From positions 1 to 33,954 of the IMG/VR virus record IMGVR_UViG_3300047667_001010: a stretch of 33,954 nt of DNA. One strand, written 5' to 3'. The notes beneath the pieces are model-generated. The model searched no databases. It saw only the letters and a program-made list of their open reading frames with translations, and was not told the DNA's origin. Below, one piece after another: positions 1-21,043 of the stretch. The stretch is from a virus. The stretch's first letter is position 1; each line of letters starts with the position of its first letter. The position numbers and the translations under genes were made by a program.

Positions 1-685
1 CTTTGATGCCTTCACCCAAGCTGCGGATCCACGAACCCACGCCTTCGGTCGCTGCGCCTACACCTTCGGTAACTGCGACGGCGGTATCACCAACGCGTGC
101 GCCAATTGTTGCGTCATCTTCGCTGTAACGGGCAGGGCGGGCAGCATCTACGGCTATGTCAGCACTGCCAATCAGGCCACCAATGCCTTCAACGGCCATT
201 CCTGCGCCTTCAATGACGGATCCGGCAGCGTTCGCCGCATAGTCAGTGATACCCCAATTGTTGTTCCGGCGTTCGCGCTGTGCTGTCTGACCTTCGGAGG
301 GATAGACTTCGTCAGCAATCGAATAGGCCGCCTCAAGGATCTGCTTGGCCTCACCTTCGTCAGACGTCAGAACAGCGAGGGCTTGTTCGGGCGTGTCTCC
401 GTTGGCGATGCGGGATGCAAAGAAGTGTGCGTCTTGGACGATTGATTCCTGTGTGATGTTGCCACCAACGGCGGCGCGGTCGGCCAGCGCCCAAACAACG
501 TTGGCGGGTGCCGTTGTTTCCGTTGAAATCTGGTCGATGAAGTCTTTTGCGGTGGGTGCTGTGGCCTCAACGGGCGATTCCGCGCTGTCAGGACGTAGAC
601 CCAAAGGCGATGACGTGGCGCGGCGTGCGGCGATTTCCTCGGCGGCAGTGATGCGGGGGTCAGTCGAAAAAGCGTTTTTGGTCAT
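1..685 (-). CDS. Internal virion protein, N-terminal part (cut by window edge)
   Basis: The reading frame opens at an ATG at 685 and stays open to position 1, giving 228 N-terminal residues; the C-terminus lies outside the window. The first part is acidic and helical (MTKNAFSTDP, then repeated A/E/D-rich stretches). It is followed by a segment rich in glycine and small hydrophobic residues (GSVIEGAGMAVEGIGGLIG) that could be an amphipathic or membrane-active region. It is the last visible gene of the leftward virion operon, after the lysozyme and the 681-aa protein, where short-tailed phages usually keep large DNA-ejection proteins. The function is inferred from position and composition only; no catalytic motif is visible in the part present. 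Confidence 0.6.
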   Translation of the reverse strand, partial: MTKNAFSTDPRITAAEEIAARRATSSPLGLRPDSAESPVEATAPTAKDFIDQISTETTAPANVVWALADRAAVGGNITQESIVQDAHFFASRIANGDTPEQALAVLTSDEGEAKQILEAAYSIADEVYPSEGQTAQRERRNNNWGITDYAANAAGSVIEGAGMAVEGIGGLIGSADIAVDAARPARYSEDDATIGARVGDTAVAVTEGVGAATEGVGSWIRSLGEGIK

Positions 686-737
686 ATTGGGCTCGCATCA
701 AAAGGCGGGCCCGCAATTCCTTTGCAGGCTAATCGAT

Positions 738-748
738 GTTTACCGCAC
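738..748 (-). promoter_or_regulatory. Element GTGCGGTAAAC upstream of the left-edge gene
   Basis: In the 86-base gap between the 681-aa gene and the left-edge gene, the minus strand reads AAAGTGCGGTAAAC, about 53 bases before the start codon. The same 11 bases occur about 60 bases upstream of the major capsid start (13625-13635, minus). The shared position suggests a late regulatory or promoter element. This is inference from two copies only. The gap also holds the short palindrome GCGGGCCCGC nearer the start codon. Confidence 0.35.
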
Positions 749-771
749 TTTAACTCTCCGCGACAAGGATA

Positions 772-2817
772 TTACCGACGCAAGACATTTGGTTGTGGTG
801 TGGGGGCGGTTGCGGCTGGATCCACACCGGCAGACGCGGGCCGTCCGGACGTGGCAGCTTCGGCATCACGAACAAGCTGAACCTGTTCAAGAATGGCAGC
901 AAGTTTGTCGTCGTTGCTCATCGCGCTCCATTGACCGGGCAACAAACTGTCTTGCACTGCTTCTAGGGCATCTGCGACGGATGTTTCGTCATCTTTTGAC
1001 AATCCTTCCGTGAATATCTCGCGGCGCATGAAGTCCATGAATTCGACATCACGTTCAGTGTCATCAGCAATGCTTTGCGCTTTAGACGCTGCGGCCGCAT
1101 CGCCGCGCTCAAGTTGCAATTCAAAGGCGCGTTCTGGGGCAAACATCAGCATAGCCTCTTCAACAATCTCATTGAGGCTTTCCCATCGGCGGGTGAAGGA
1201 ATTTCCATCTGCGTCGTTGAACGTGATTTCGGCCCCAAGGATGTTACCTTCGCCATCGCGAATGAAATCAGAGTTTTCTTTGTCGATCTGCAATCCGTCG
1301 CCAAAATATTCCTCGTTGTTGTAGAGGTCCAAGATTGAAGACCCGAACAGTTCAAAATCGCCGGTCGTTGCACCCATGGCTGCGCGGGCATAATCGCGCA
1401 TGCCAGCTTCAACCGTCTCTTTATCGATCCACGTTTGATATTGTTCGGCCTCGGCTACCATGCCGCGACGCATCAATTGTTCGACAATATGGGGGGCACC
1501 GATTTCACGATATTGGTCAATCCAACGTTGGGCGGATGTCTCAACTTCTTGGGATTGCGCACCAGTTCGGGTGCCTAAACCAGTAGGGCGCGCATCTGCC
1601 TCGTTGATCGATGTGTCAGGGACGGCGGCGGCAATCTCTGCGGGATCAGCGGAAAGTGCTGCGGCGTCAGGTACATTCGGCGCGCCGTTAGGCTGCGTGT
1701 AGGGTGCTCCGCGTTCCGCGTTCATAAAATCAGGCGAGGCGTCTTGAGGTGCAGGGGTTTGCATCTGTGATGGTTGGCGGGGTGCTCCGATAGGTTGGAC
1801 TGCGGCGGGCGGGGCCGGTGCGGCGTCGGGATCGGGGCGGCGTGCACCAAGGGATGTTTGAGCGCTGACTTGGTCGTTTGCTGCCCGGTCGGCCATTTCA
1901 CGGTCTGTTGGCATTACTGTGCCGTCTGCATTTACCGCTGTGCGCTCGTTGATCAAGGTGCGCAAACGTTCGGCATCACGGGGTGTAAGCGCGGCTCCGG
2001 TCGGATCCGTGCCAGCGTCAAGCATTCTGGACGCGTTTGTCACAACACGTTGATCAAATTCCATGTCCGTCCCAGCGTCGGGGATGGCGGGGCCGTCACT
2101 TTGTCCCGCAACGCGGTCGCGGTGGCGCTGTTGGACTTCGGGCGGCAGAGTTTGCCAGTATTCGGCGGGTTCCATCCCCTCACGTCCGGCCATTGTTACG
2201 AACGCGGGATCCTGCATTGCTGCGGCATCAGCTGCGTTACTAGATGTTCGGGAAGGGATGTTGCTGGGCTGCACACCGCGCGCTGCCGGATCTTGAATTT
2301 GTGGCGGTGCTTGGCGATCCAATGGCATTTCGCCACCGGGTACGGCAGGACGCATACCCAGAACGGGTGCAGAAGGCTGATCTGGGGCTGAATTGCCGAC
2401 GCTGGGTGCCGGTTGAGCGGGGTCAGGCGTCAATCGGTTGGGGGCGGGTGGAGAGTTGGGTGTGGGTGAAGGAACGCGACCCACGGATGCATCAGTGGGG
2501 GCACCAGTGTTTGGGGGCTGCGCACTGGCAGGGGCGGTGCCAGTCAGCGAGTCGTCAGTCAGATCGGCACCATCTTCATAGATACCGCGGATCCACGCGC
2601 GATCAGCGGCTTGGCGTGCGCGCTCACTTTGAAGATATTCTTGATCATCGCGTGCCCATCCGTCGCTTTCGTCTTGGCGACGATTACCTCGGAGACGTTG
2701 TTCTTCGTTTATTTGATCCAAACGTTCTTGGCGCGCGCGATCAGCGGCGCGGGAATCTCTGCCCTCGCGAAAATTTGCACCTTGCTGTAGTCCACCTATA
2801 AAACCACCAACCGTCAT
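772..2817 (-). CDS. Large internal virion protein, 681 aa, function unknown
   Basis: The start at 2817 (MTVGGFIGGLQQ) is preferred over an upstream ATG at 2868 because a GGAG Shine-Dalgarno lies a few bases before it and the upstream part would run into the lysozyme gene. Residues about 10-65 are charged and likely coiled coil. Residues about 80-180 and 290-400 are low-complexity Pro/Ala/Gly/Gln linkers. From about 420 the protein becomes helical and acidic (for example DDTERDVEFMDFMRR). No enzyme motif was recognised. Position next to the virion lysozyme and before another long protein suggests an ejected internal or inner-core protein. Its N-terminus (GGFIGGLQQGANF.EGRD) resembles that of the neighbouring lysozyme protein (GAFAGGLGNSLQDGKD), as if both carry the same virion-targeting segment. 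Confidence 0.8.
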   Translation of the reverse strand: MTVGGFIGGLQQGANFREGRDSRAADRARQERLDQINEEQRLRGNRRQDESDGWARDDQEYLQSERARQAADRAWIRGIYEDGADLTDDSLTGTAPASAQPPNTGAPTDASVGRVPSPTPNSPPAPNRLTPDPAQPAPSVGNSAPDQPSAPVLGMRPAVPGGEMPLDRQAPPQIQDPAARGVQPSNIPSRTSSNAADAAAMQDPAFVTMAGREGMEPAEYWQTLPPEVQQRHRDRVAGQSDGPAIPDAGTDMEFDQRVVTNASRMLDAGTDPTGAALTPRDAERLRTLINERTAVNADGTVMPTDREMADRAANDQVSAQTSLGARRPDPDAAPAPPAAVQPIGAPRQPSQMQTPAPQDASPDFMNAERGAPYTQPNGAPNVPDAAALSADPAEIAAAVPDTSINEADARPTGLGTRTGAQSQEVETSAQRWIDQYREIGAPHIVEQLMRRGMVAEAEQYQTWIDKETVEAGMRDYARAAMGATTGDFELFGSSILDLYNNEEYFGDGLQIDKENSDFIRDGEGNILGAEITFNDADGNSFTRRWESLNEIVEEAMLMFAPERAFELQLERGDAAAASKAQSIADDTERDVEFMDFMRREIFTEGLSKDDETSVADALEAVQDSLLPGQWSAMSNDDKLAAILEQVQLVRDAEAATSGRPASAGVDPAATAPTPQPNVLRR

Positions 2818-2821
2818 TGTG

Positions 2822-3541
2822 TTATCTCCGTTCAAATTCTTCGATTGCGCGGCGCAGATCTGCGTCACTCACATTGTGAAAACCTTCCCACTCTGCGCGT
2901 AGACCGGCCATTTTACCGGTCATCGTATCAGAGGATCTAAGTCGTTGGCGGGCTAGATGGTCGGCCATCTGTAATTGTGTTTGCTCATTGAAAACCACGT
3001 CATCGGCCAAGCCCAGCGCGTCTGCTGTGTTGCGCATCGTAGTGCCTACGATCTGAAATCGCCCCATGGGTGTGGCGACGCGTGCGCGCTGTCCATTTCT
3101 GTCCAATTCGCCGCGGACCCACTGTCCATATTCGCCAGACGGGTTCGAGAAATCGCGCAGGTCGCCCAATGTCATCTGTGACACACGGGTATCTGCAAAT
3201 TGTCCTCCATTGTTAGAGAACCCAAACAATGTGTCATAGCCACCACCACCTTCGTGGTTGTCTACAAGATCCCAAAGACGGCTGGAACCTCGTGTCGATC
3301 CGCCGTGCCCTGAATCCGCGGCGTTAGGGTTAGGGCGCGTGCCAAGGCCGCTGCGTCCAGTATACGCATCGCGGTCCATGGGTTGATATTGTGGTTGATC
3401 ATAAGCCCCAGCGGAAACGCGACTTTCTTCAATATCGAGCGCGCGATCTTGCTGACCGTACAAACGTTGGCGTTCATCCCGGTCTTTGCCATCCTGCAAA
3501 GAGTTACCAAGGCCACCAGCAAAGGCTCCAAGCGCACTCAT
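2822..3541 (-). CDS. Virion-associated lysozyme / transglycosylase-like protein
   Basis: The protein has 239 aa. Residues 1-85 are a Gly-rich and charged virion-targeting segment. Residues about 86-205 look like a lysozyme-fold domain: LWDLVDNHEGGGGYDTLFG with a candidate catalytic Glu97, then the glycine-rich loop TPMGRFQIVGTTM (about 157-169), then helices ending LQMADHLARQRL. The spacing of Glu, the GRFQI-type loop and the C-terminal helices is typical of phage muramidases used for local peptidoglycan digestion during DNA entry. The start overlaps the stop of the upstream S74 gene as ATGA, so the two are translationally coupled. A role in entry rather than host lysis is inferred from the structural-operon position; no holin was seen nearby. 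Confidence 0.72.
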   Translation of the reverse strand: MSALGAFAGGLGNSLQDGKDRDERQRLYGQQDRALDIEESRVSAGAYDQPQYQPMDRDAYTGRSGLGTRPNPNAADSGHGGSTRGSSRLWDLVDNHEGGGGYDTLFGFSNNGGQFADTRVSQMTLGDLRDFSNPSGEYGQWVRGELDRNGQRARVATPMGRFQIVGTTMRNTADALGLADDVVFNEQTQLQMADHLARQRLRSSDTMTGKMAGLRAEWEGFHNVSDADLRRAIEEFERR

Positions 3542-4458
3542 GCTGCTAACTGGTCAATTTTGGCATCAAGTTCTTTGATTGCGCCCAATGCCACGCCGGT
3601 AATGTCGATCAGGTCGATTGTTTTACCGTCGCCCATGCCAGTGGCTTTGGTAAAGTCTTGGGCATAGGTGCCAATATGCGACTTCTCGTCACCGGCACCC
3701 TTTTTATAGTCCCACTTCTCGACGCGCATTTTGCGAACAGCGCCCAGAACATCGTTTACGGGCTTTTTGTTTTCCTTGACGTTTTCATCAGACATGAGCG
3801 CATAACCGGCGAGAGTTCCCAAGCCTCCCCAAAGTTGGGTTGAAGAATCCTGATTGGCTTGCCATGTTTGCATTTGCTGATTGTGCATGCTGCCAAGGAT
3901 GTTGGCTTGTCCTTGATAGCCAGCTGATGCGGCCGCAAAGCCTGAATTGCCGGATGCGGTGGCCATGCCAAGTGAAGTACCCGGATTGACCGCATATTTA
4001 TTGCCAACGTTGATTGCATCAGCTTTGCGTCGATACCCATCGTCTTCAACCTTACGGGATGCCATGTTGCGTGCGCCTGCGACTGCGAGACCGGTATCTG
4101 TTGCTGTGCGGCGCGTACCCTCATCACTGCGCCCCGAACCCGGACGAACGCCCATAGCGGCCTGTTGGCGGGCGCGTTGGCCTGTAGCTGACTGCATGGA
4201 CTGCTGGACATCAGCCTGCGCCTCATTGGACGCCTGATTACGTCGCTCGGCGGTGTCGTAAGTGGATGCCTCGTTAACAAAGGCCGTTTCCATAGGTTCG
4301 TATATTGTTTCCCAACGTTCGCGATCAGCGGCGGCCCACGCATTGGAAATTCCAGCTTGTTCTTTTGCAAACGCAAGGGCGTCCTGACCTGTCTGCGCAG
4401 TCATCGTAGCTGCGATGCCCTGTGCTGGGTCTGCTGTTGGTGCTGCTGATCCACCCAT
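3538..4458 (-). CDS. Ejection-like protein with C-terminal S74 (intramolecular chaperone) domain
   Basis: This 306-aa protein starts at 4458 after a strong AAGGAGA ribosome site. Residues about 25-205 are Ala/Gln/Arg-rich helix with the pattern RERWETIYEPMETAFVNEA and GVRPGSGR, which I know from gp14-like ejection proteins of podoviruses. Residues about 212-221 are a Gly-rich hydrophobic stretch. The C-terminal part begins SDENVKENKK (Ser223, Lys228) and continues KWDYKKGAGDEKSHIGTYAQDF, the hallmark of peptidase S74 / endosialidase chaperone domains, which trimerise a partner segment and may cleave themselves off just before the serine. S74 domains usually end tail fibres; here the domain ends a separate helical protein. 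Function is inferred from these motifs and from the neighbouring lysozyme. Confidence 0.75.
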   Translation of the reverse strand: MGGSAAPTADPAQGIAATMTAQTGQDALAFAKEQAGISNAWAAADRERWETIYEPMETAFVNEASTYDTAERRNQASNEAQADVQQSMQSATGQRARQQAAMGVRPGSGRSDEGTRRTATDTGLAVAGARNMASRKVEDDGYRRKADAINVGNKYAVNPGTSLGMATASGNSGFAAASAGYQGQANILGSMHNQQMQTWQANQDSSTQLWGGLGTLAGYALMSDENVKENKKPVNDVLGAVRKMRVEKWDYKKGAGDEKSHIGTYAQDFTKATGMGDGKTIDLIDITGVALGAIKELDAKIDQLAA

Positions 4459-4475
4459 GTCAGTCTCCTTGTTCG

Positions 4476-4961
4476 TTATACCGGCGAACGGTTTTCGTCG
4501 CGCTGATCGTTTATAGGAGAGGGTTCAAGCCAACGGCACATATTGCGCGTCATTGACATCGTGATAGCAGGCTCTTGCATCATTACGCCAGCCCCTACGA
4601 CACCGGAGATAAGCGCGCCACTTTTTAGGGCGATGATCTGGACGGGGACATTTGTGATTGCAATCGGGAAAATGAGTTGCGGATAACGACGATATTCAAA
4701 CGCCACCTTGAATAGAGTTTTTAGAATTTGACTGGATGCCCAGCCAGTTTCTCCGCCAAAATGGATTTCAGCGCCAAGCGTTGTGGCTTTCTGCATGACC
4801 ATCACGGCGATGAGCCTGTCCCCCTTGAGCACCCCGATTGCCTTGGCGTCAGGTGCCCAACCTTCTGATTTTGTCAGGACCAAGCCAGCGGCAAGCAGAG
4901 TATCTTGATTGGCGCGGGTGTATTTGGTGGGTTCTGTCATCGGGATCGCTGTATTTTCCAT
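4476..4961 (-). CDS. GNAT-fold-like virion-operon protein
   Basis: The protein has 161 aa. The core resembles a GNAT acetyltransferase fold: a strand (KAIGVLKGDRLIAVMVMQ), a second strand with EIHF, a helix after GETGWASSQILKTLF, then a strand PQLIFPIAITNVPVQIIALKSG that parallels the usual N-x-x-A-x-x-x-x-x-K-x-G motif of GNAT proteins. Many short-tailed phages carry such a protein between fibre and ejection genes, close to T7 gp13-type proteins. The acetyl-CoA pyrophosphate loop (Q/R-x-x-G-x-G/A) is not evident, so it may be structural rather than catalytic. The ATG at 4961 lacks a strong Shine-Dalgarno; an internal ATG at 4940 is an alternative. Confidence 0.55.
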   Translation of the reverse strand: MENTAIPMTEPTKYTRANQDTLLAAGLVLTKSEGWAPDAKAIGVLKGDRLIAVMVMQKATTLGAEIHFGGETGWASSQILKTLFKVAFEYRRYPQLIFPIAITNVPVQIIALKSGALISGVVGAGVMMQEPAITMSMTRNMCRWLEPSPINDQRDENRSPV

Positions 4962-5006
4962 TGGCGGGCTCTTTTGTTGTGGAGAGTGTTATCGGTTATT
5001 ACGGGT

Positions 5007-5408
5007 TTATGCACTAGAATTAGCTTTGCTCCTAATAATCTCATCAATGGCCCTGTATCTGTCGCCAAAATGAAAAGATGACCAACCGAATGCTGCAACA
5101 GCGCCAAAGAAAACTACTGACAGAAACAAGGCAAAAGGAACCTTCAAGGTGCTGCTCTGAGAGAGCGCGTCACGGGTCATCGCTTTGTAAAATTTCCAAT
5201 CATACTCGAAACGGTGTTGCCACGTGAACCCTCGCGCATACCCAAAATCATGATGGCGCCATGACGCTTCCTTGAAAAACCAAGATGCAGTTTTCGTGAT
5301 CACATTTCTGGCCCAATCAGGCAGCCATTCCGGCCCGACACCATTCCCAAAGAACAGTTTTTGGTCTTCTGTTAGATCCTCAAAGGATATTTTCACACTA
5401 TCACCCAT
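5007..5408 (-). CDS. Phospholipase A2-like membrane protein
   Basis: The protein has 133 aa. Residues 51-60 read RHHDFGYARG, followed by HRFEYDWKFYKAM (65-77). This matches the active-site layout of prokaryotic secreted phospholipase A2: a His-Asp pair (H53, D54), a Tyr, and a second Asp (D70) one helix later. FFGNGVGPEW at 19-28 could be the glycine calcium loop. Family PLA2s hydrolyse the sn-2 ester of phospholipids. A strong hydrophobic stretch at about 89-109 predicts a membrane anchor; no signal peptide or disulphide-forming cysteine pair is present. The gene overlaps the DUF4376 gene by 16 bases. A role in membrane penetration or lysis is inference. A DUF1353-like protein, which also has an HD..Y and a later Asp, is the main alternative. 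Confidence 0.6.
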   Translation of the reverse strand: MGDSVKISFEDLTEDQKLFFGNGVGPEWLPDWARNVITKTASWFFKEASWRHHDFGYARGFTWQHRFEYDWKFYKAMTRDALSQSSTLKVPFALFLSVVFFGAVAAFGWSSFHFGDRYRAIDEIIRSKANSSA

Positions 5409-5881
5409 AAAGCTGCGTCATCCGGATCAGTCGTCTGCGGGTTCATTTCCTTGATGGCCCACGATAGCGCATAGATTTGCGACATAAAACTTGCGCCTTT
5501 AATCCATAGGTCAATGACTTGGGAAGGGGTTAAGGTGTGTTGTACATTGCTGCGATCTAGGAAATTTGTAGGCGTAGTGGATCCCATGCTGATTTGGATT
5601 TGCGCGGCAAAGGCCAGACCGTGAAGTGTTGCCTGATCTTCGGGTCGCCCCTGTAGGTCAACAAGACCATAGCCAGTCACATCGACGGTCGTGCCTGCGA
5701 CAATCAGCTTGGCTCGTTTGGTGTTGACCGACTCTCTAAATTTCAGCGTGATTTCATCTATATCGTCATCCAACAAAACAGCGTATGATGCCAAGGGGTC
5801 GGTCATTGCGGATGTTTCGTTGGCCGCGCGAACAAGGTTTATCTGTACAGCACTGGCATTAAAGACTGCATAAGTTGGCAT
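5393..5881 (-). CDS. DUF4376-domain protein, likely fibre-associated
   Basis: The protein has 162 aa. Residues about 25-80 form a strand-rich domain; residues about 85-148 resemble DUF4376, a domain found at the ends of phage tail-fibre and tail-fibre-assembly proteins: LHGLAFAAQIQ, then NFLDRSNVQHTLTPSQVIDL, then helices ending AIKEM. The start ATG shares one base with the stop of the fibre gene (TAATG), so expression is tied to the fibre. It is probably a fibre chaperone or accessory tip protein; this is inferred from domain and place. Confidence 0.68.
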   Translation of the reverse strand: MPTYAVFNASAVQINLVRAANETSAMTDPLASYAVLLDDDIDEITLKFRESVNTKRAKLIVAGTTVDVTGYGLVDLQGRPEDQATLHGLAFAAQIQISMGSTTPTNFLDRSNVQHTLTPSQVIDLWIKGASFMSQIYALSWAIKEMNPQTTDPDDAALWVIV

Positions 5882-8229
5882 TAAACGATACCTCTCTCGC
5901 CATAATACACCACAACTATAAGACCGGGACCACCTGCATTTCCAGTGGCATAGCTTGCGTTATCATCGTTGTTTATCCCACCCCTACCACCGACTGCATA
6001 GTCACCGTCTCCGGCAAAATTACTGCCATTAAAACCTATAAATGCTGGCACTGCGCCCTGCATGGTTAGCAATCCGGCGTCCATTGGTCTCGTGACAGCA
6101 TTGGGAATTATCATGCCATTAGGTCCGTCAATATCTGCGGAAGCCGCGCCAAAATCCATGCAGCCACCTACCGATATTTCATCACGGGCATCGGTATTAC
6201 CCCCGCGACCGCCTGTATAATTGAAGTTACCTCCCGTTGCGGCACCGCCTAATCCGCCAAGAGCACTAGGGGTGCCACTTGACAAGTCGGCGTTTCCACC
6301 ACTTCCGCCAGAACACTGGATATTAATGCCAGCGCCTACCATTGAGGTGTTGCCTCCGTCATTGCCACTTTTGAGAAAACGGTTGTTGTTTTCTAAAACT
6401 TGAGGGCCACCGGCACCAATCGTTATAGTATAAAGTTCTGCCATATCAGGATCTTTTAGTAGCAGGCTTGCAAAACCGCCTCCACCACCGCCAGTTGCCG
6501 TAGGGCGTTGATCCCAAGATTTTGCACAGGCTCCACCTCCACCAGCGCCTATTGCATAAATAATTGCGAACCCAGCATGCTTGAATTGGAACGTAGTAGT
6601 GTTTGCTGTTATACCTTCGGCGTCGATTGCGCCAAGTGGCGCTTTGACAGATCCCGCCTCAAACATCCTCGCAGTGATAAACCCGTCAGCGACCATGTTC
6701 CCTGTTATCAATAACTCATTAAATTGGGCATATCCTGTGTTGTCGATTCTCCAGCCTGCCGTATCTACAGCGTAATCGTCGCTTTGCAGCACAGCGTCCT
6801 TGAACAACAGCATGCCACCCTCGAACGTATATTGGTTGGCCGAAAACGTCAGGCCTGACACGGCGGTGCCGTTCAGATCATCCCACGCATATACCTCTAG
6901 GTAGGAACTGGCCCCACCAGCCACAACTTGCCATTGAAGCGTGGCGCCCAGCCCTGCGTCTATTGCTGCAACTGCCGTTGTGGTTTCCCTGACCCTCGCT
7001 TCCAATACAGTGATCGGAACAACAGTGATTTTGTGGAAAACAATCTGCTTTGATACCGGCCCTGCAAAAAGAGACGTGCTGTCTGCCACAAGTGTGAGGT
7101 TGAATTCCTGCACCGCATTATAAGCTAAGTCGGATGGTCGTTCTATGATGACATTGGCGGTATATCGACGTCCCGAGACAATATCGGCTGCGGGATCTGG
7201 CAGAATATCTTTAAGTGGGACGTTGATTTGGACGCCTAGACCGTCTGATAGTTTCAACCAAGTGGCAAAGATGCCAGCGCCGTCAAGGCTTGCCCCAGAC
7301 ACCCAATCAAACTCTACCGTGACTGAATAGCCAGCGTGATGGTCGGATCCTATCCATGTGGCGGGTATGTCTGATGCCCATTGGATGCCGACCTCGGCCG
7401 CTACAGTGGAAGTAAGGTCAAAGTCGACGGATTGCCCATAGCTGTAGACGTCATTGACCCTGACAGTGCGCCCCGTGGCCACACCCCACGTATTGAACGT
7501 TCCTGCTTCAAAGAATGGGCTTTCAAGCACGTTTGCGCCTGACGTAAGAAGTTTTGCGGCAACGTCCGTAACGGCTACGGCAGCATTAAACGCATTTGAC
7601 GCGCCTGACTCCGATGTTGCTGCTGCCTGTTGGCTGACACTTGCTTCACCAGCGGCCGTTTCGGCAGCCACCTTGTCACTTTGGGCAGCGGTAGCACTCG
7701 TTGCACTGCCTGTCGCGGATGTTTCAGCCGCGGTCTGTGCTGTCGCGGCTGCGGATGCTGCACCAGCGGCAGCACTTTCGGAATCCGCGGCGGCTTGCGC
7801 AAAGGTTGCTGCTTGTGAGTTGGCCAATCCAGCGTCCGTTTGGCTTTGTGCTGCGGCGCCGGCCGATGTTGATGCGTTACCTGCTTCTGTCGCTGCGGTC
7901 TGTGCGGATTGTGCCGCTGCGTCGCGCGCTGTCTCTGCGGCTTCGGCAGCAACCAATGTAATTTCGTAATCGACGGCTAGTGAATTTGATAATGCCTCTA
8001 GGCGTGAAACTGTTGCTATAGGCTGGGTGACTTGACCGGGTGTGCTGGCGACCTCAATAAACGTTTCAATAAATGACGTTGAGGATCCTAATTGTTCAGC
8101 AAAAGTGACGGCCAGCGTTTTTTCATCACCAACGGTAAGTGCTTTTCCAGTACCATCGCCACGTATTCCCAATAACACTTCTAGGCGTTCAAGCGCAATT
8201 TCAAACCGCATTTCCAACGGGGTGGTCAC
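5881..8229 (-). CDS. Tail fibre / receptor-binding protein with glycine-rich tip
   Basis: The 782-aa protein starts with GTG in a GTGA overlap with the nozzle gene. Residues about 1-85 should attach to the tail. Residues about 87-225 are an Ala/Ser/Thr-rich heptad-like stalk (repeated A-A-x-S-A-x-x-A), typical of trimeric fibre shafts. Residues about 235-400 look like a beta-sandwich domain (LESPFFEAGTFNTWGVATG and following). A linker with DNTGYAQFNELLITGNMVADG resembles phage central-fibre regions. The last 230 residues or so are extremely Gly-rich (GAGGGG, GGGGGG, GGSGGN, GGRGGN, GNAGGPG), as in glycine-rich tips that bind receptors through polyglycine sandwiches. Receptor and host range cannot be read from sequence. 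Confidence 0.85.
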   Translation of the reverse strand: MTTPLEMRFEIALERLEVLLGIRGDGTGKALTVGDEKTLAVTFAEQLGSSTSFIETFIEVASTPGQVTQPIATVSRLEALSNSLAVDYEITLVAAEAAETARDAAAQSAQTAATEAGNASTSAGAAAQSQTDAGLANSQAATFAQAAADSESAAAGAASAAATAQTAAETSATGSATSATAAQSDKVAAETAAGEASVSQQAAATSESGASNAFNAAVAVTDVAAKLLTSGANVLESPFFEAGTFNTWGVATGRTVRVNDVYSYGQSVDFDLTSTVAAEVGIQWASDIPATWIGSDHHAGYSVTVEFDWVSGASLDGAGIFATWLKLSDGLGVQINVPLKDILPDPAADIVSGRRYTANVIIERPSDLAYNAVQEFNLTLVADSTSLFAGPVSKQIVFHKITVVPITVLEARVRETTTAVAAIDAGLGATLQWQVVAGGASSYLEVYAWDDLNGTAVSGLTFSANQYTFEGGMLLFKDAVLQSDDYAVDTAGWRIDNTGYAQFNELLITGNMVADGFITARMFEAGSVKAPLGAIDAEGITANTTTFQFKHAGFAIIYAIGAGGGGACAKSWDQRPTATGGGGGGFASLLLKDPDMAELYTITIGAGGPQVLENNNRFLKSGNDGGNTSMVGAGINIQCSGGSGGNADLSSGTPSALGGLGGAATGGNFNYTGGRGGNTDARDEISVGGCMDFGAASADIDGPNGMIIPNAVTRPMDAGLLTMQGAVPAFIGFNGSNFAGDGDYAVGGRGGINNDDNASYATGNAGGPGLIVVVYYGERGIV

Positions 8230-9920
8230 TGGACTATCTCGGTGTGCGATCCTGCGATGATGACGCGTTCTACCTTCATGTTGGTTAATATCTCAACGCG
8301 CCATTTTGTGTACATATTGTCCCCGGTAAGGCGCGACACGGCGTTGGGCTCGAACGTCTGTCCAACTAAAACGTCATCGCCATAAACATCAACGCGGAGA
8401 TAGTCGTCACAACCAAGGGTTTGAGCATCTGCCTTGACGACACCGAACGATATAGGGTGGTCAAGCTGCAAGGTGCCGGATGTCCATTCCGCATATGTGT
8501 CGATTGGCTGTGAAGGGTCATCGTAGGTTTTTACTGTCAGCCCATCGGCCTCAAGGTAGAAGATATTAGATGATGTGATGTCGAAAAACAGATCAATTGG
8601 ATCAAAACCGGCTTCCTCAATAAAGGGCTGTGCGCCGTTTGTGTTGAGAATAAAGACACCACTGGCAGTCTTGAACAGATACTTGCCGTCGATTTGTGCT
8701 GCGCGGATTGTTTCGGGCGCGAGGTTGACCCACTGGTTTCGAGTGTACAGGTTTGCAGTGACAATTTGTGGGCCCGCCTGCGACATTATCACGAGTCCGC
8801 GCTGTGATGCGTAGGCGGCGGCATATCCTAGATCCACTACAGATCGGGCGGATACGCAAGGCAGGTTCACTTCCATTTTTTGCATGACCATGCTGTCGGG
8901 GGTCTGGCCTTGCACCATGTAAGGATTGCCTGTGGTAAGAACGCACAACGTCATGCCGAACGCAGCGAGGCCAACAATATCATATTCCGTTGTCAGTTCG
9001 TATTTTAGCGGCCACGCGTGGGGAATGTATGGTTCACAGAACCGAAGTGACCGGCCATCAAAGGCGGCCATCATACCATTTGGAAGCGTCACAATTCCGC
9101 TCATAGTGTCGGATGGAAGGTCATAATCGCGCGATGTGATGAATTCACCTAATGGCACAGCGACAATGTCGTGGTTGTAGTTTGATTGAGCAACGGGAAT
9201 TTCGACCACAAAATAGAGGTCTGTGACGCCCAGCGCAGAGGTTTGTGACCGGTACAGACGTATCCTATCGATATTGCGCCCTACGGACGGTTCAACAAAG
9301 CCTGTGACGGTCAATCCTTGGCCCGACTGCCAATTAATGTTGTCAGATAGTGCGCTGGGCGGCGATTCCTCGTCAAAGACGGTCACATAGGTGTATGCCG
9401 CTACGATCGATGTCAGCGCTGGGCTCGGATTTTCGTTCAGTGCGGTGGCTACGGGAAGAACCGCATCTACCGACGCCCCACCAGCTGCGGCAACCAAGCG
9501 ATCATATTCGGCGGTTGCGGCTGTTTGTGCATCGGCGGCCGCGATAGATCCGACTGTTGATATATCGCCGGTGGCGGTGATTGTGAGTTGACCAACAGGC
9601 GCGGGCAACTTGAGGTCAAACCGCCCTACGCCTTCCACAAACATGGATGGAACACCGTCACCCGTCAGATACAGGCGGTCGCTTGCAATAGGCCCCGGTG
9701 CGGCGTTCACATTACCAGCAAAACCGCGCCATGTGTCGTTGTGCAAAATGATGGTGGAAACAGCGTCCGAGAACGTGTGTGCGGTGGCACTGCCATTGAT
9801 TGGCACAATGCAACCATCTTCAAAGCGGGCATTTTTGGCGGATGCCGCAACGCCTGGTGGGATATCTCGGGCGTTCAGCTTAGGAACGATGCCTTGGAAT
9901 GATTGGAGTGTGACTTTCAT
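8226..9920 (-). CDS. Tail nozzle protein (P22 gp10 / T7 gp12-like)
   Basis: The protein has 564 aa. The N-terminus (FQGIVPKLNARDIPPGVAAS followed by NARFEDGCIVP) is typical of beta-propeller tail-tube closure proteins of short-tailed phages: P22 gp10-like DNA stabilisation proteins and T7 gp12-like nozzles. The rest is strand-rich with propeller-like repeats (IRLYRSQTS, VTLPNGMMAAFDGRSLRFCEP, YMVQGQTPDSM, YLEADGLTVKTYDDPS). An inserted Ala-rich helix lies near residues 125-160. The gene lies three bases after the connector and ends in a GTGA overlap with the fibre gene, matching the connector-nozzle-fibre order of podovirus tails. Confidence 0.72.
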   Translation of the reverse strand: MKVTLQSFQGIVPKLNARDIPPGVAASAKNARFEDGCIVPINGSATAHTFSDAVSTIILHNDTWRGFAGNVNAAPGPIASDRLYLTGDGVPSMFVEGVGRFDLKLPAPVGQLTITATGDISTVGSIAAADAQTAATAEYDRLVAAAGGASVDAVLPVATALNENPSPALTSIVAAYTYVTVFDEESPPSALSDNINWQSGQGLTVTGFVEPSVGRNIDRIRLYRSQTSALGVTDLYFVVEIPVAQSNYNHDIVAVPLGEFITSRDYDLPSDTMSGIVTLPNGMMAAFDGRSLRFCEPYIPHAWPLKYELTTEYDIVGLAAFGMTLCVLTTGNPYMVQGQTPDSMVMQKMEVNLPCVSARSVVDLGYAAAYASQRGLVIMSQAGPQIVTANLYTRNQWVNLAPETIRAAQIDGKYLFKTASGVFILNTNGAQPFIEEAGFDPIDLFFDITSSNIFYLEADGLTVKTYDDPSQPIDTYAEWTSGTLQLDHPISFGVVKADAQTLGCDDYLRVDVYGDDVLVGQTFEPNAVSRLTGDNMYTKWRVEILTNMKVERVIIAGSHTEIVQ

Positions 9921-9923
9921 GGC

Positions 9924-10574
9924 CTAGAACCATATCGTTTTGCTGCGCGTGCGTGGCCGTGTCTGGTTCTTAAATTCCGACGCGCTCAGGTTCGAGAGGG
10001 ACTGGTTAAACATCGCGCTGTGGTAGGCGACAATCTCGGGGTTGGAGTATTCTTGATTGGGCATAGCAGAAATTGCAGCAATAGCGCCGTCTGCAATCAC
10101 ATCACCATGATTGCGGTGCAGGAAGTCGGGGACGCGATCATAGGCGTCCTGCATTGCGGTATCGCCTGCCATCGTGCCAAATGACTGGCCTTGGCGGGGC
10201 TTTAATGTGCAGCGGATCACAAGTTCGCCCTCGGTATAGGGCGCGATGTGGATCTTGTCGGTCTCCGGCGTGGAATAGAAATACGGCGTGCCTACGTCCT
10301 CTTCACCAAATAGATCATCGTGAACGGCCGCAGTGAGCAACTGCCCCTCCCAAGTCACTAAGCGAATAGTGTGAAGTGCGGCATATGTGGGTATGTCGAT
10401 AGCCGTTTCGGCCGCGACCACTGATTGAGTGATGGTTTCGCGCCATAGCCTTGTGCGTTCGCAAAAAATAATAGCGGCTTGCCGGATCTGGTTGGTGATA
10501 ACGATCTTTGGGCAGGCACCCACATAGGGCTGAACCAAGGGCAGGAACGCATCAAGGTGTATCGTGGTGGCCAT
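9924..10574 (-). CDS. Head-tail connector / adaptor-like protein
   Basis: The protein has 216 aa and starts after a good GAGGAA ribosome site. The N-terminal helices (AFLPLVQPYVGACPKIVITNQIRQAAIIFCERTRLW) followed by a beta domain (IDIPTYAALHTIRLVTW, then ELVIRCTLKPRQG) and a C-terminal helical part match the pattern of adaptor proteins that sit under the portal in T7-like and P22-like phages. The basic tail (TRPRTRSKTIWF) could contact DNA or the portal ring. The assignment rests on fold pattern and place between another connector and the nozzle. Confidence 0.62.
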   Translation of the reverse strand: MATTIHLDAFLPLVQPYVGACPKIVITNQIRQAAIIFCERTRLWRETITQSVVAAETAIDIPTYAALHTIRLVTWEGQLLTAAVHDDLFGEEDVGTPYFYSTPETDKIHIAPYTEGELVIRCTLKPRQGQSFGTMAGDTAMQDAYDRVPDFLHRNHGDVIADGAIAAISAMPNQEYSNPEIVAYHSAMFNQSLSNLSASEFKNQTRPRTRSKTIWF

Positions 10575-10585
10575 GATGAATTCCT

Positions 10586-11272
10586 CTATACGGTCGGATC
10601 AGGCGCGGGGATTTCCGGGCGAACGGTCTTTTCAGCTGATACCTCAACACCCATGCGCGTGGCAAACGCTTGATAGTGAAATGTGGCTCGGGCTGACATA
10701 CCCGGCAGATCGATGTCTTTGTTGGTAGCGCGGAAACAGAGGTAGTCTACGAGTGCATCGCCTTCGGCATCCTGCAACGGGCTGTCTACAGCGGCATAGG
10801 ATGCTAGATGGTTGGGGTTTTTGGGGTCTTCTACAATGACTGCAATGACGGTTTCGACCAAAGCGCGGATGGTGCCTGTGCCATCATTTGCCGGAAATAC
10901 CATAAATGTTGTGATGTCGGCTTCGTCAACAATGACGTGATCGACAATTGCATGGGAACCAAGCGTGGCAGCGTTGCGCCAGTTTGGAATGTACGAGTCC
11001 AAAAGCTGAACGGACGTAGGTGTGATGGCTGGCCCGTTTACATTGCTTTCAAATTTCACGACACGTTTGATTGTGTCTGGGATGGCCTGCTCCACACCGG
11101 CCACAAGGGGTAGCGTGGATCTGCGGATTGCAAGGTCGGGTTTTAAGGCTACTGCGGCGCGCACACCCTCATTTAACCATCCTACCAACTCGCTTACGGT
11201 CCAACGAACAGCGCGCCTATCCTTTAGCAGGATAAGCGCGCTTTCGATGATGGCTGCGACTGTTTTGGTCAC
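10586..11272 (-). CDS. Phage adaptor / connector protein (DUF6682-like)
   Basis: The 228-aa protein begins with GTG at 11272, the only usable start after the preceding stop. Its opening (IIESALILLKDRRAVRWTVSELVGWLNEGVRAAVALKPD) is the helical signature of the phage adaptor family next to portal and nozzle genes. It is followed by the typical strand IPDTIKRVVKFESN and later helices (AEGDALVDYLCFRATNKD). It probably forms a ring joining portal and tail. Together with the next gene it would make a two-part connector; which one contacts the portal is not clear from sequence. Confidence 0.68.
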   Translation of the reverse strand: MTKTVAAIIESALILLKDRRAVRWTVSELVGWLNEGVRAAVALKPDLAIRRSTLPLVAGVEQAIPDTIKRVVKFESNVNGPAITPTSVQLLDSYIPNWRNAATLGSHAIVDHVIVDEADITTFMVFPANDGTGTIRALVETVIAVIVEDPKNPNHLASYAAVDSPLQDAEGDALVDYLCFRATNKDIDLPGMSARATFHYQAFATRMGVEVSAEKTVRPEIPAPDPTV

Positions 11273-11278
11273 GTTGAA

Positions 11279-11878
11279 TTACTCGCTCGTTCCGTTGGCT
11301 TCGTTGGCGAGTGCTTTCGCATCCTCAACTTCTTTATCCATCAGTTGAAGTTGAGCGACGACTGCGGCTTCAATCGTTTGGCGTTTTGAATTGTGGTGCG
11401 GTTTTGTTTCCAAAAGTTCAAAGTGAGCCAAGGCGAGTTCTTCATCAGACAGGTTCTTTACATTGAATTCTGTCAGGACATCCAACTCGGTACCGGGATC
11501 CGGTTCAGGCTTGGGCTCCGTCTTGGTCGCTTCTTTAGGGGTTTTGGGGGTAAGGCCCTCTCCTTCCTCACCCCCAATTCCCTTACTGGCAGCAGCGTTG
11601 TCTCCGGGATGGGTGATCAAGGTGCTGTCGGTAAGGCTTGTATCATCATCGTCCTCATCGCCGTCTGGGGCGGCGTCTGGGTCAAACATAATGAAGGTGG
11701 GGATCTTGAGGAACATCTGGATGTGTGTGGTGTCGGCACATTCACAAATATGTGCATCATCGGACTCTTTGGTCGGCCCAAATTGATAATCCTTGCCTCG
11801 GGGGCTTTTCGTGCTGGGTGGCATATTGATTAGGGTGCCACCAACACGGCGGATTGTGTGTTCAATTTTCAGTTTCAT
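11279..11878 (-). CDS. Acidic linker protein of the head module, function unknown
   Basis: The 199-aa protein is preceded by a strong AGGAGA ribosome site. Residues about 1-66 form a compact strand-rich domain that includes HICECAD. Residues about 67-125 are a disordered, very acidic Gly/Pro/Lys/Glu linker with a run of Asp. Residues about 130-195 are helical (LSDEELALAHFELLETKPHH and following). The position between the decoration-like protein and the connectors suggests a head-completion or head-surface role. No family was recognised. Confidence 0.65.
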   Translation of the reverse strand: MKLKIEHTIRRVGGTLINMPPSTKSPRGKDYQFGPTKESDDAHICECADTTHIQMFLKIPTFIMFDPDAAPDGDEDDDDTSLTDSTLITHPGDNAAASKGIGGEEGEGLTPKTPKEATKTEPKPEPDPGTELDVLTEFNVKNLSDEELALAHFELLETKPHHNSKRQTIEAAVVAQLQLMDKEVEDAKALANEANGTSE

Positions 11879-11925
11879 CGGTCTTCTCCTGTGGAGGGTG
11901 AGGGAAAGGTGAGAGGGTAAGAGGG

Positions 11926-11949
11926 TATCGCCCTATTTTTTAGGCGATA
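11926..11949 (-). other. Stem-loop over the stop codon of the decoration-like gene
   Basis: TATCGCC and GGCGATA form a perfect 7-bp stem; a bulged C allows two further pairs around a short T-rich loop. The hairpin contains the stop codon of the 142-aa gene. No T-run follows on the minus strand, so it is more likely an RNA processing, stability or attenuation element than an intrinsic terminator. Confidence 0.4.
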
Positions 11950-12368
11950 TATTTGATGGTCAGCGTGACGTACTTTGTGCCAGCGGCTTCACCAGCAACC
12001 AGTTTGACACCAATACCGCGGGCAGTGTCGCTGGGCGGAATGGCGGCGGCAGCGATACCGTCAAGTGTTTGAACGGCATTACGGGCTACGCCGTCAAACA
12101 GTTCATCAGCAGATGTGCGGGTGTCGCTTGCATCTTTGTAGACGCCAGTGACAAAACCGACATCAAAGGTTGCTGCTACAGCATCGGTAAACACTTCTGC
12201 GCCGACAAGTTGGCATCCACCCGGCAGCGCGCCGATTTCAACGATATCAGTGCCATCATTAGTGGCAGCGCTGTAAATGTGGGTGAAGGTTGCGGAATGG
12301 ACAGCCCCGGCTGTTTGCGGGACGGGAATGCTTTGGGTTTTGACGTTCTTGGCGATAAATAGGGTCAT
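11940..12368 (-). CDS. Head decoration-like protein
   Basis: The protein has 142 aa and is strand-rich: IPVPQTAGAVHSATFTHIYSA, ALPGGCQLVGAEVFTD, then KLVAGEAAGTKYVTLTIKYIA at the C-terminus. It has no Lys-rich or enzymatic motif. It lies directly after the major capsid gene in transcription order, separated by a hairpin, the usual site of head decoration or cement proteins. I infer a capsid-surface or capsid-assembly role; direct family recognition is weak. Its leader contains the 14-base TTTTGACAG element described separately. Confidence 0.55.
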   Translation of the reverse strand: MTLFIAKNVKTQSIPVPQTAGAVHSATFTHIYSAATNDGTDIVEIGALPGGCQLVGAEVFTDAVAATFDVGFVTGVYKDASDTRTSADELFDGVARNAVQTLDGIAAAAIPPSDTARGIGVKLVAGEAAGTKYVTLTIKYIA

Positions 12369-12392
12369 GACGTGGTTTCCAGTTCAGTAAAT

Positions 12393-12406
12393 GGGTTTTG
12401 ACAGGG
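12393..12406 (-). repeat. CCCTGTCAAAACCC element upstream of the decoration-like gene
   Basis: On the minus strand, 14 bases ending 25 bases before the start codon are identical to 22211-22224 on the plus strand, which is part of the large stem-loop in front of the zinc-ribbon-like early gene. Both copies are non-coding and lie in gene leaders. It may be a binding site for a phage regulator; this is inferred from the exact match and placement. Confidence 0.35.
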
Positions 12407-12425
12407 ATCAGGATCAGAAAGTAGT

Positions 12426-12450
12426 GCGGGGCCCTAGAGGAGAGCCCCGC
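12426..12450 (-). terminator. Hairpin after the major capsid gene
   Basis: GCGGGGC and GCCCCGC form a perfect 7-bp GC stem with an 11-base loop, eight bases past the capsid stop codon on the minus strand. The following bases (ACTACTTTCTG) are only moderately T-rich. It is a plausible partial terminator or 3'-end stabiliser, which would raise capsid expression over the downstream genes. Confidence 0.55.
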
Positions 12451-12458
12451 CTAATTGC

Positions 12459-13565
12459 TTATGTGACCGGTGCGGCCGCTGTATCAACTGCCATGACACC
12501 AAAGTCAGAACCGATTCCAGCTTGGTTTTTGTAGCGCGTCTTCTTCACACCGCAAATCATACCAGCCGCAATGGACACTTGGTTTTCATAGTCTGTGGAC
12601 TCTTCGACCCATGACATACGGGAAGACGAACCACGTCCGTAGGCTTTGACACCGGCTTGACGCCCAAGGAACAACGCGCGGGATACGTTGACGTTACCGC
12701 CTGCACCATAGTCAGAGAACCGGCGAATGTTGTTGTGCGAGTGCAGCGAGACGTTGCCGATTGTGCCCATTTGATCTGTAAAGATCGGGTTGTCGGATCC
12801 GCGAGAACCCGCGGCCTTTTGGATTTCAAGCCAATCGCCTGCGGCACCGCTTGTGCGGAGGTCATGCTTTTGCCAATCGTTCATCAGCATAACAAAGTGG
12901 CTTTTTGCGCCATCTTTGATGGGCTGCATGTTTACAACATCAGGGTTCGTAGCGTTGAGCATGCCGACCTTGGCAATAACCCGTTCGATCAGCGCAACGG
13001 ACATTTTATCCGCGGCAGCAAGATCAGCTTTTGAAGTTGCATCGCCGCCATATGTGATGTGGGCTGCGTCGGGTGCTTCGATTGGGTTGCCAGCAAAGTT
13101 TGCTTCGGTGAAGATTTTGTCTTCATTTTCCGCGTTGTTGCCCAAATCGCCGGACAGATAGCAGAATGTCGCGTCATCGTCCCATTCAGCCATATAGTCG
13201 CCGGTACGGTCGCGCATCAGCTTGCGCATATCGTGGATTGTGCGCTGACGGGACATCCGACCACCACCAGAACCGGGCTTACGGACTTGGTCGATCTTGA
13301 TTTCGTCTTGCAGGAACGTGAGGGCTTCTTCATTTCCTTCGGCGCGGTTGTCGCCATAGACCGGCTTCTCACGGAAACGCATGTTCAGGTCAAAGAAGAT
13401 CGTGTCGCCTGCGTCTTTGGTCAGGTCGACCTTTTCTTGAATGATCGCGTTTTCGGAGGTGTTGGTGAATTTTTTGAAGTACGACTTCTTTGCCATGTCG
13501 ATGGCAAGGGCGGTCGCCCACTTCTTCTGGTTTTGGGCCGATGCGTTGGTAATGCGGGATTCCAT
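12459..13565 (-). CDS. Major capsid protein (N4-gp56 family-like)
   Basis: The 368-aa protein starts at 13565 (MESRITNASAQNQKKWA) after AAGGA; an upstream ATG at 13694 would add 43 unlikely, Arg/Cys-containing residues read through the leader. It shows the N4-gp56/DUF4043 pattern: AIDMAKKSYFKKFT near the N-terminus, DAGDTIFFDLNMRF, then the RQRTIHDMRKLMRDRTGDYMAEW helix region, FVMLMNDWQKHDLR, and a late strand (RALFLGRQAGVKAYGRGSS). It forms the icosahedral shell with an HK97-type fold. The long leader with a candidate promoter element and the hairpin after the gene fit high-level expression. Confidence 0.85.
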   Translation of the reverse strand: MESRITNASAQNQKKWATALAIDMAKKSYFKKFTNTSENAIIQEKVDLTKDAGDTIFFDLNMRFREKPVYGDNRAEGNEEALTFLQDEIKIDQVRKPGSGGGRMSRQRTIHDMRKLMRDRTGDYMAEWDDDATFCYLSGDLGNNAENEDKIFTEANFAGNPIEAPDAAHITYGGDATSKADLAAADKMSVALIERVIAKVGMLNATNPDVVNMQPIKDGAKSHFVMLMNDWQKHDLRTSGAAGDWLEIQKAAGSRGSDNPIFTDQMGTIGNVSLHSHNNIRRFSDYGAGGNVNVSRALFLGRQAGVKAYGRGSSSRMSWVEESTDYENQVSIAAGMICGVKKTRYKNQAGIGSDFGVMAVDTAAAPVT

Positions 13566-13624
13566 GGTTGTGCGTCCTTTGGAAGTAACAAATATCGGCA
13601 CTTCCTGCGCACTATGTGCTGAAC

Positions 13625-13635
13625 GTTTACCGCAC
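13625..13635 (-). promoter_or_regulatory. Element GTGCGGTAAAC upstream of the capsid gene
   Basis: This is the second copy of the 11-base element also seen at 738-748. Here the minus strand reads AATGTGCGGTAAAC, 60 bases before the capsid start, in the 91-base non-coding gap after the 96-aa gene. A late-gene promoter or activator site is the simplest reading, but two copies do not prove it. Confidence 0.38.
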
Positions 13636-13656
13636 ATTGCGGCAATCGTGCAAGCC

Positions 13657-13947
13657 CTACGATAAAATACCCTTTTGAACAGCGATAGGGACACTTCGGG
13701 CGACGTCGACCATTATAACCAAACTCGACGTTGGGTTTGCTTCCTTCAAGAAGATTTTCCCAACATCTATTGATATTTCCACAAGGTCATTGATGTAGAG
13801 AGGCAAGGGAATCTTGCGCACGACTTGATTGTGCCTCTCAACCGTCAACACAGCTGCATCAATGGAAAACACCATCGCTGCATCCCCAATCTGTATGACG
13901 AGGGGTTGGTCTATGATCCGGCTAAGAGGCGACTTGTGAACGAACAT
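13657..13947 (-). CDS. Small protein between scaffold and capsid, function unknown
   Basis: The 96-aa frame begins 18 bases after the scaffold stop codon. The protein has a clear alternating hydrophobic pattern (QPLVIQIGDAAMVFSIDAAV, IPLPLYINDLVEISIDVGKIF, SSLVIMVDVARSVPI) that looks like a small beta-sheet domain. The Shine-Dalgarno is weak (GGGA about 11 bases upstream). It fills what would otherwise be a 400-base gap in a tightly packed operon, which supports it being real. It could be a head-assembly or capsid accessory protein by position. No family was recognised. Confidence 0.58.
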   Translation of the reverse strand: MFVHKSPLSRIIDQPLVIQIGDAAMVFSIDAAVLTVERHNQVVRKIPLPLYINDLVEISIDVGKIFLKEANPTSSLVIMVDVARSVPIAVQKGILS

Positions 13948-13965
13948 CCCGCGAAGATTCCCTGT

Positions 13966-14925
13966 TTAATCGCGCAAGTAGGCGTCTCGTTCGGCTTCCG
14001 ACATACTCGCCATTGCTGCTTCTGCACTGTAAAGTTCTTGGGTGTTCGTCACGTTGGTGACTGCCTTGTCAATCGCGCCGAACCGGCTGTCATTTGGGCT
14101 GTTCAAATCGGCGGCCGGCGCTGTTTTCAACGTGGTGGGTGCGCCCGGTCTTGGTTCTGTGCTGACCTTCAATTTGCCTTCATCAGGATCGACTGGCGGT
14201 ATCACTGGTGCTGCGCCTGTCAAAGGGATCCCCATGGCGTCTGCGGTGATTTTATAACGCTCATAGGCCAGCTTTATGTTTTGATCCATGTCACGGCGTG
14301 GAAATTGCGTATTAACGGCACGCAGTTCAGCGTCCCAGCCTGCGTTGTGTTCAGCGGTTTGTAGGGCTGGGTTGATTGCGTGGAAGTTGTCCAGCTTTCC
14401 ATACCATTGATCAGCTATGGCGTTCTGGCTTTGTTGCCGCATAGCATTGGCGGATTCAATGACAACGCGCGAATTCACAATCGTTTTATCAACATCCATT
14501 AGGCGTGTTGTGAATTCTTCGTCATCGATGTCGCCTGCCTTATATTCGTCCATCACAGCCTTCTTGGCAGCTTCGGCGGCAGTTAGTTCTTGCTGCGCTT
14601 TTGTGGTGTCGGGGATCTGCTCTTGTTTTGCCACTGGCGCAGGTTGGGCGGCTTCAATAGCTGCGGCATCTTCATCAGCCTTTGCTTGTTTGACGGATGC
14701 TTCTTCGGCTGCCGCTGCATCTGTGATGGCCTGTTGATCGGCAATAATGGCATCGCGCTCGTCTTCCGGCAGCGCTTCAAGATCTTCAAGCGTGAATTCT
14801 TCCGGCAAGCCATCAGCATCCAGCGCGCGTTCTGGCGTTTCGACTTCGGGTGTTTCTACCGCGACATTAACGGCAGCATCTTTGTCTTCTTCTGTGATGG
14901 CGGCATCTGGGTTTGCAGTGTTCAT
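13966..14925 (-). CDS. Capsid scaffolding protein
   Basis: The 319-aa protein starts after AAGGAA. It is strongly acidic at the N-terminus (EEFTLEDLEALPEDERDAII), has long Ala/Glu/Gln/Lys coiled-coil segments (about residues 60-185), a more structured centre (QWYGKLDNFHAINPAL), a Pro-rich region and a helical C-terminus ending SMSEAERDAYLRD. The position between portal and capsid and this composition are typical of scaffolds that guide shell assembly and are removed before packaging. No protease domain is seen. Confidence 0.78.
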   Translation of the reverse strand: MNTANPDAAITEEDKDAAVNVAVETPEVETPERALDADGLPEEFTLEDLEALPEDERDAIIADQQAITDAAAAEEASVKQAKADEDAAAIEAAQPAPVAKQEQIPDTTKAQQELTAAEAAKKAVMDEYKAGDIDDEEFTTRLMDVDKTIVNSRVVIESANAMRQQSQNAIADQWYGKLDNFHAINPALQTAEHNAGWDAELRAVNTQFPRRDMDQNIKLAYERYKITADAMGIPLTGAAPVIPPVDPDEGKLKVSTEPRPGAPTTLKTAPAADLNSPNDSRFGAIDKAVTNVTNTQELYSAEAAMASMSEAERDAYLRD

Positions 14926-14937
14926 GGCGAGGGTTCC

Positions 14938-20482: not shown

Positions 20483-20564
20483 GGTTCTAGCTTCCTGCCG
20501 GATGTGCGTTACGCGTCCACACTTCTGGTTTTTTTGATAACAGGTCAAGATTATTCGAGTTTGT

Positions 20565-20593
20565 TTGATAATCACGGCCATTATTTTGATCAA
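20565..20593 (-). promoter_or_regulatory. Candidate promoter for the virion operon
   Basis: On the minus strand TTGATC and TATCAA are spaced by 17 bases, each matching four of six consensus positions, about 83 bases before the terminase small-subunit start. It is the best sigma70-like candidate found for the leftward operon, but weak. Confidence 0.3.
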
Positions 20594-20609
20594 TTGGCCC
20601 GATTTTACC

Positions 20610-20638
20610 TTGTATGTGTAACGTTTTGTTACTATCCT
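20610..20638 (+). promoter_or_regulatory. Candidate early promoter with operator-like inverted repeat
   Basis: TTGTAT (20610-20615), a 17-base spacer and TATCCT (20633-20638) form a plausible sigma70-type promoter 48 bases before the first rightward gene. The spacer contains the inverted repeat GTAAC-GTTTT-GTTAC (20618-20632), exactly where a repressor would block polymerase. The regulator is unknown. Around it, 20483-20685 holds no other convincing gene. Confidence 0.5.
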
Positions 20639-20685
20639 ATATGAACAGGCCAAGAATTTTGGCAAAGCCACGCAAGGATCAGACG

Positions 20686-21042: not shown

Positions 21043-21043
21043 A

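Follow-up and report, generated by a model that had tools for sequence, protein, structure and literature searches.

A cysteine-free phospholipase A2-like protein encoded beside the tail-fibre genes of a marine bacterial virus

Next to the tail-fibre genes of a marine bacterial virus lies a small open reading frame (5408..5007, minus strand; 133 aa with an ATG at 5408) in which an earlier note had recognised the active-site pattern of prokaryotic phospholipase A2 (PLA2), and this locus raises the question of whether a lipase is encoded there and what a short-tailed phage would do with it. The window, that is the whole stretch of DNA analysed, is a phage record of 33,954 bp, and the same phage is found within a 56,417-bp record (G001). 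Positions 9520-21937 of the window match one end of G001 at 100% and positions 21682-33954 match the other end at 99.8%. These two segments share about 256 bp, in keeping with a complete genome that is circular or terminally repeated. A third stretch (window 10-10408) matches G001 at 99.99%. The portal (PF16510, 2e-155) and the gene order place the phage among the Bcep22/Parlo/PBC5-type podoviruses. An integrase-like ORF at 29589-30659 with a C-terminal HSLRHTTTSELAGLG..TGHTS pattern suggests that the phage is temperate. One uninterrupted reading frame of 4484 aa or more (G001:21045-34499, L078, minus strand), which runs past the retrieved stretch, occupies the place of the DarB-like giant protein in Bcep22-type phages.

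The location of the PLA2-like gene in the late operon of a short-tailed phage, as claimed earlier, was borne out by its neighbours, all on the minus strand. On one side stand the tail fibre (5881..8229) and a tail-fibre chaperone-like protein with a DUF4376 domain (5393..5881; PF14301, E 3.6e-11), which we infer to be a fibre chaperone from its position after the fibre; on the other side stand an acyl-CoA N-acyltransferase-like (GNAT-like) gene (4476..4961; phrog_4470) and a virion structural protein with an S74 chaperone-like end (3538..4458; phrog_8003, PF13884). The true start of the PLA2-like gene is probably the in-frame GTG at 5396 (5007..5396, minus strand, 129 aa), as suggested by the sequence GTGA (5393..5396, minus strand), in which this codon overlaps the stop of the preceding chaperone gene, and by the N-termini of relatives, since the N-terminus read from this start, MKISFEDLTEDQ, aligns with MKRPSFHDLTPEQQ-type starts among them. 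Through this overlap, the gene is likely translationally coupled to the chaperone gene. A functional link with the acyltransferase-like gene was considered and rejected, because the latter is a fixed neighbour of Bcep22-type phages, kept at the same place in Bcep22-like phages without any PLA2.

The motif RHHDFGYARG corresponds to residues 51-60 of the 133-aa form. Within it, HHDFGY (residues 52-57; 5238..5255, minus strand) holds the predicted catalytic His53-Asp54 (codons at 5250-5252 and 5247-5249) and Tyr57, and HDFGY is identical in the solved group XIV PLA2s 4AUP, 1FAZ and 8K1W. Downstream, R66...D70 (5199..5213, minus strand; D70 codon at 5199-5201) aligns to the RxD of group XIV PLA2 and would provide the second catalytic Asp of the dyad. 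The loop FGNGVGPEW (residues 20-28 of the 133-aa form; 5325..5351, minus strand) lies at the position of the PLA2 calcium loop and is a candidate for that function, with Asn replacing the group XIV loop Asp (DGCS) in the GNGxGP loop of all 24 aligned relatives. In these same 24 sequences, which diverge down to 37% identity to the first row of the alignment, H53-D54, Y57, R66, D70 and two glycines are invariant, as are the loop N-G-x-G-P-x-W and the final V...G, a degree of motif conservation that goes beyond chance. Of the ten gene pairs tested for pN/pS, seven gave 0.085-0.294 and one gave 0.386; pairs of chromosomal copies (0.139-0.176) fall within the low range, and the comparison of the window gene with L002 gave 0.454 but with saturated synonymous sites (dS). 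The family, chromosomal copies included, thus reads as being under purifying selection.

In Pfam, no family matches the window protein itself, PF09056 has no match at E<=1 for any of 22 members, and PF07087 (DUF1353) is listed for only two of the 22 with a best E of 0.26, which does not reach the Pfam cut-off. On the other hand, phrog_6098 is matched by all 22 members, down to 4.9e-10 (window protein, E 2.1e-6), and its bacterial members include signal-peptide-bearing, cysteine-rich proteins of the DGCS..CC..HD..Y..GG..R..AD...VR.GG type. Both PLA2 and DUF1353 families were then matched in profile-profile comparison (hhalign), far above their controls of 150 column shuffles per target and reversed profiles: the score was 37.6 against four group XIV PLA2 sequences (probability 89%; best of 150 shuffles 23.1, reversed 10.5) and 40.9 against DUF1353 (probability 91.6%; best of 150 shuffles 19.1, reversed 9.7). 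The aligned profile region spans the HD helix through the terminal helix, the loop being outside the alignment. One member of the phrog_6098 family also matches phrog_1158, the DUF1353 family. These relationships are read as common descent of the PLA2-like family and DUF1353 as sisters. Scavenger-receptor (CD163) matches from the PDB phmmer search and the first profile-search rows were rejected as compositional, being due to the tryptophan/glycine-rich loop, and a weak cytochrome bd match of one member (E 0.02) was set down to chance.

The earlier note had held that a best match to DUF1353 would point to a non-lipase family, a view overturned by the DUF1353 protein TtaP, which was demonstrated in 2024 to be a PLA2 with a site formed by H70/D71/D85 and whose activity is lost in a D85A mutant (PMC11525133). 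The authors of that work also point out the similarity of TtaP to prophage DUF1353 proteins (PMC11525133). Consequently, the DUF1353 relationship strengthens the lipase reading.

Structure prediction by AlphaFold2 gave a pLDDT of 73.5 for the window protein and 86.7 for its relative L014. When compared by Foldseek with 350,542 PDB chains, PLA2 chains took ranks 1-2 for the window protein and 1-4 for L014, the latter being TbSP1, Saccharothrix and Sciscionella PLA2 with probabilities of 0.84-1.00; the E-values (0.28-1.7) are not significant, as expected for a short helical core. A BFVD search returned as second match a phage protein named 'Phospholipase A2'. The three-helix PLA2 core is therefore supported by these predictions. 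The C-terminal membrane segment proposed earlier held in part. The hydrophobic stretch is real and present in all 24 relatives (mean Kyte-Doolittle value of 2.23 for residues 90-108 of the window protein, range 1.45-2.72), but it is no added anchor: this transmembrane-like helix (residues 89-110; 5079..5144, minus strand) is the third PLA2 core helix. In solved PLA2s the same helix is weakly polar (-0.06 to -0.34) and in DUF1353 moderately hydrophobic (0.9-1.4), which indicates a core helix turned hydrophobic. Taken together, the profiles, phrog_6098 and fold matches make a PLA2-type ancestry very likely, and confidence is high that both the fold and the active site are PLA2-like by descent.

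The family is a variant and not a textbook group XIV member, given its lack of disulphide cysteines, the absence of an evident signal peptide and the Asn at the loop Asp; neither a cysteine nor an N-terminal hydrophobic signal is found in the sequence and hydropathy profile of the window protein. With group XIV secreted PLA2s (4AUP, 8K1W, 1FAZ; PF09056) it shares the HDFGY active-site helix, the downstream R..D..F helix, a third helix ending yy.AVr.fG and the best fold matches, whereas it differs from them by the features just named, by its hydrophobic third helix and by its phage operon. Like DUF1353 proteins (PF07087/phrog_1158, TtaP included), it is small, with no evident secretion signal or disulphide-forming cysteines, is phage-borne and often near lysis genes in its family, and carries HD..Y, R/AD..F..aM and a final helix ending avR..G; unlike them, its family has FGNGVGP.W.P in place of the TD.ASVP loop and a much more hydrophobic third helix. 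The Y..GG..R..AD and VR.GG motifs are common to it and to the phrog_6098 bacterial proteins (DGCSxFPDG..CC..HD..Y..GG), many of which, unlike it, bear signal peptides and are cysteine-rich. Such phrog_6098-type proteins (L090/L091/L092/L099) are widespread in bacteria, being found in 19 of 398 sampled genomes, many with signal peptide and cysteines; four tested proteins of this type, the divergent member L086 included, have no Pfam match at E<=0.1.

That the window protein is an active phospholipase is, on these sequence grounds, probable. A PLA2 fold that has lost catalysis and now serves as a structural protein or chaperone would agree with the linkage to the fibre module, with the Asn for Asp in the loop and with the PHROGs label of the sister DUF1353 family (phrog_1158), 'tail assembly chaperone'. 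It is nevertheless very unlikely, as every residue for catalysis is among those invariant in 24/24 relatives, a DUF1353 member is an active PLA2 (PMC11525133) and the site is retained in chromosomal copies, where there is no tail.

The family was followed by one scan of viral contigs, which gave 9 relatives, and one of genomes, which gave 19, nearly all from Rhodobacterales with two from Rhizobiaceae; later scans added divergent ones. The gene is rare: 3 of the 298 genomes sampled from the family of G008 carry it, as does 1 of 385 from its class, and tblastn against 50,697 named phage records returned no relative of the window protein, of a P2-like member or of a divergent member. Two Pelagimonas copies (L015:7995-8594 and L022:6624-7244) are extended at the C-terminus by an additional domain of about 65-70 residues, and a copy of Ruegeria halocynthiae (L028:7992-8309) is without the N-terminal loop and is apparently a decayed gene.

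Tail-fibre chaperone genes are the usual predecessors of the PLA2-like gene, which in some phages adjoins the lysis cassette. In P2-like prophages, it comes directly after fibre/fibre-assembly genes (phrog_105, 136, 2837), often before the sheath gene or after gpD, and the named phage AmM-1 carries a phrog_6098-type relative at the same place. This position directly 3' of fibre or fibre-chaperone genes, shared by the window podovirus, P2-like myophages and AmM-1, together with the structural genes flanking it in the window and lysis genes located elsewhere, would suit a virion-borne PLA2 packed with fibre or tail proteins and hydrolysing envelope phospholipids at entry, as parvovirus VP1 uses a PLA2 domain. 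Such a role is judged fairly unlikely: the hydrophobic helix and the likely chaperone-coupled translation fit a cytoplasmic membrane protein equally well, several relatives are located in lysis cassettes, and Bcep22-like phages manage without the gene, BcepIL02 and Parlo having the internal virion protein, structural protein and acyltransferase but lacking the fibre-chaperone-PLA2 block.

Stand-alone copies are also found in Rhodobacterales chromosomes with no visible prophage (L016:7992-8378, L019:7995-8378, L029:7995-8378 and L085, minus strand, about 1486-1900), with the active site intact. From sequence reading and no profile search, the neighbours of L016, L019 and L029 are named as di-haem oxidoreductase genes, those of L019 also include imelysin and trpB (trpB being named in the same way), and L085 lies near TetR and RadC-like genes, likewise named. 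At the expected start position, L016 reads ATA. These copies, which lie next to imelysin and di-haem oxidoreductase genes and are subject to purifying selection, and the patchy distribution seen in the family of G008 are what an accessory (moron) lipid-remodelling enzyme would predict, one altering the cell envelope during infection or lysogeny, for instance in superinfection exclusion or envelope homeostasis; TtaP likewise remains with the cell, and its loss leaves envelope integrity unaltered (PMC11525133). Since the phage copies are within late tail or lysis operons and several overlap the chaperone gene, which implies late expression, this explanation is regarded as unlikely.

The reading favoured here, with a rough probability of 0.45, is a late hydrolysis of host membrane lipids auxiliary to lysis. 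It is supported by relatives beside lysis genes: L076 has the order chaperone, PLA2-like, holin, endolysin, Rz, Rz1; in L084 the PLA2-like gene is followed by a short membrane protein, endolysin, Rz-like and lipoprotein gene; and in L002 by one small gene and then endolysin. It is supported as well by DUF1353 genes, which in phage Sf11 close the endolysin-holin-Rz cassette and in Asesino, FNU3, JD-Fnp5 and DMCA lie about 1.5 kb or less from an annotated endolysin or cell-wall peptidase. Opposed to a lysis role are the distance of about 19 kb between the PLA2-like gene, inside the structural operon, and the phage's own cassette, the position between fibre chaperone and sheath genes in P2-like phages, at least three chromosomal relatives outside a phage context, and the DUF1353 genes of pv27, CPX, CBB and XaC1, away from lysis genes.

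The lysis genes of G001 itself comprise a holin, a PG-binding endolysin-like gene, an Rz-like coiled-coil membrane protein and an overlapping LysC/Rz1-like lipoprotein. As the complete phage has this spanin-like pair, the PLA2-like protein does not replace the spanin, and that candidate role was rejected. Between the holin and endolysin-like genes, a 176-aa protein with an N-terminal membrane segment (G001:20000-20530, L078; phrog_37731) is a possible extra component of the cassette. Patatin is a Ser-Asp enzyme whose fold is unrelated to that of the PLA2-like protein. A lytic cassette with a patatin phospholipase has been proposed for phage WO (PMC9203015), which resembles the present case as a phage phospholipase proposed for lysis and differs from it in that WO is without a canonical endolysin while the phage of the window has an endolysin-like gene. 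No phage-lysis PLA2 of the present fold was found in the published literature.

From these data we infer the catalysis, calcium dependence, topology, timing and lysis role of the favoured auxiliary lipid hydrolysis as follows. The window protein would be a cysteine-free enzyme of the PLA2 superfamily, kin to group XIV secreted PLA2 and to DUF1353, made late with its translation coupled to that of the tail-fibre chaperone. Its third core helix, now hydrophobic, would seat it on or in the membrane, and its late expression, hydrophobic helix and lack of a signal peptide suggest a cytoplasmic-membrane protein attacking host phospholipids. As it carries no such peptide, its initial location is probably the calcium-poor cytoplasmic side of the membrane. 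With H53/D70 as catalytic dyad and D54 and the GNGVGP loop as likely calcium site, it would cleave acyl chains from phospholipids in the host's own membranes, and full activity may come once holin or membrane damage admits seawater calcium. The resulting lysophospholipids could then aid the canonical holin-endolysin-spanin system in breaking the envelope. The stronger proposal, a distinct membrane-embedded, cysteine-free PLA2 family that acts alongside holin, endolysin and spanins as a fourth component of lysis (or as an entry lipase of the virion) in tailed phages unrelated to one another, and that stays latent in the calcium-poor cytoplasm until calcium flows in, is rather doubtful.

Many phage DUF1353 genes are labelled 'tail assembly chaperone' (phrog_1158; for example NC_054636.1:33244-33585 and NC_031107.2:137191-137832). 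The label is doubtful, as PLA2 activity has been demonstrated for a DUF1353 protein and several of these genes adjoin endolysins, which suggests that it should be re-examined.

The family of the window protein has drawn little notice and accompanies tail-fibre and lysis genes in phages of several kinds. The current view is that tailed phages infecting Gram-negative bacteria disrupt three layers by means of holin, endolysin and spanin. If the favoured auxiliary role in lysis, or one at entry, is true, phage release or entry would include a further step of lipid chemistry, carried out by a conserved lipid-cleaving enzyme encoded in late operons of phages of several types, and the DUF1353 PLA2 recently found in typhoid islets would gain a phage context.
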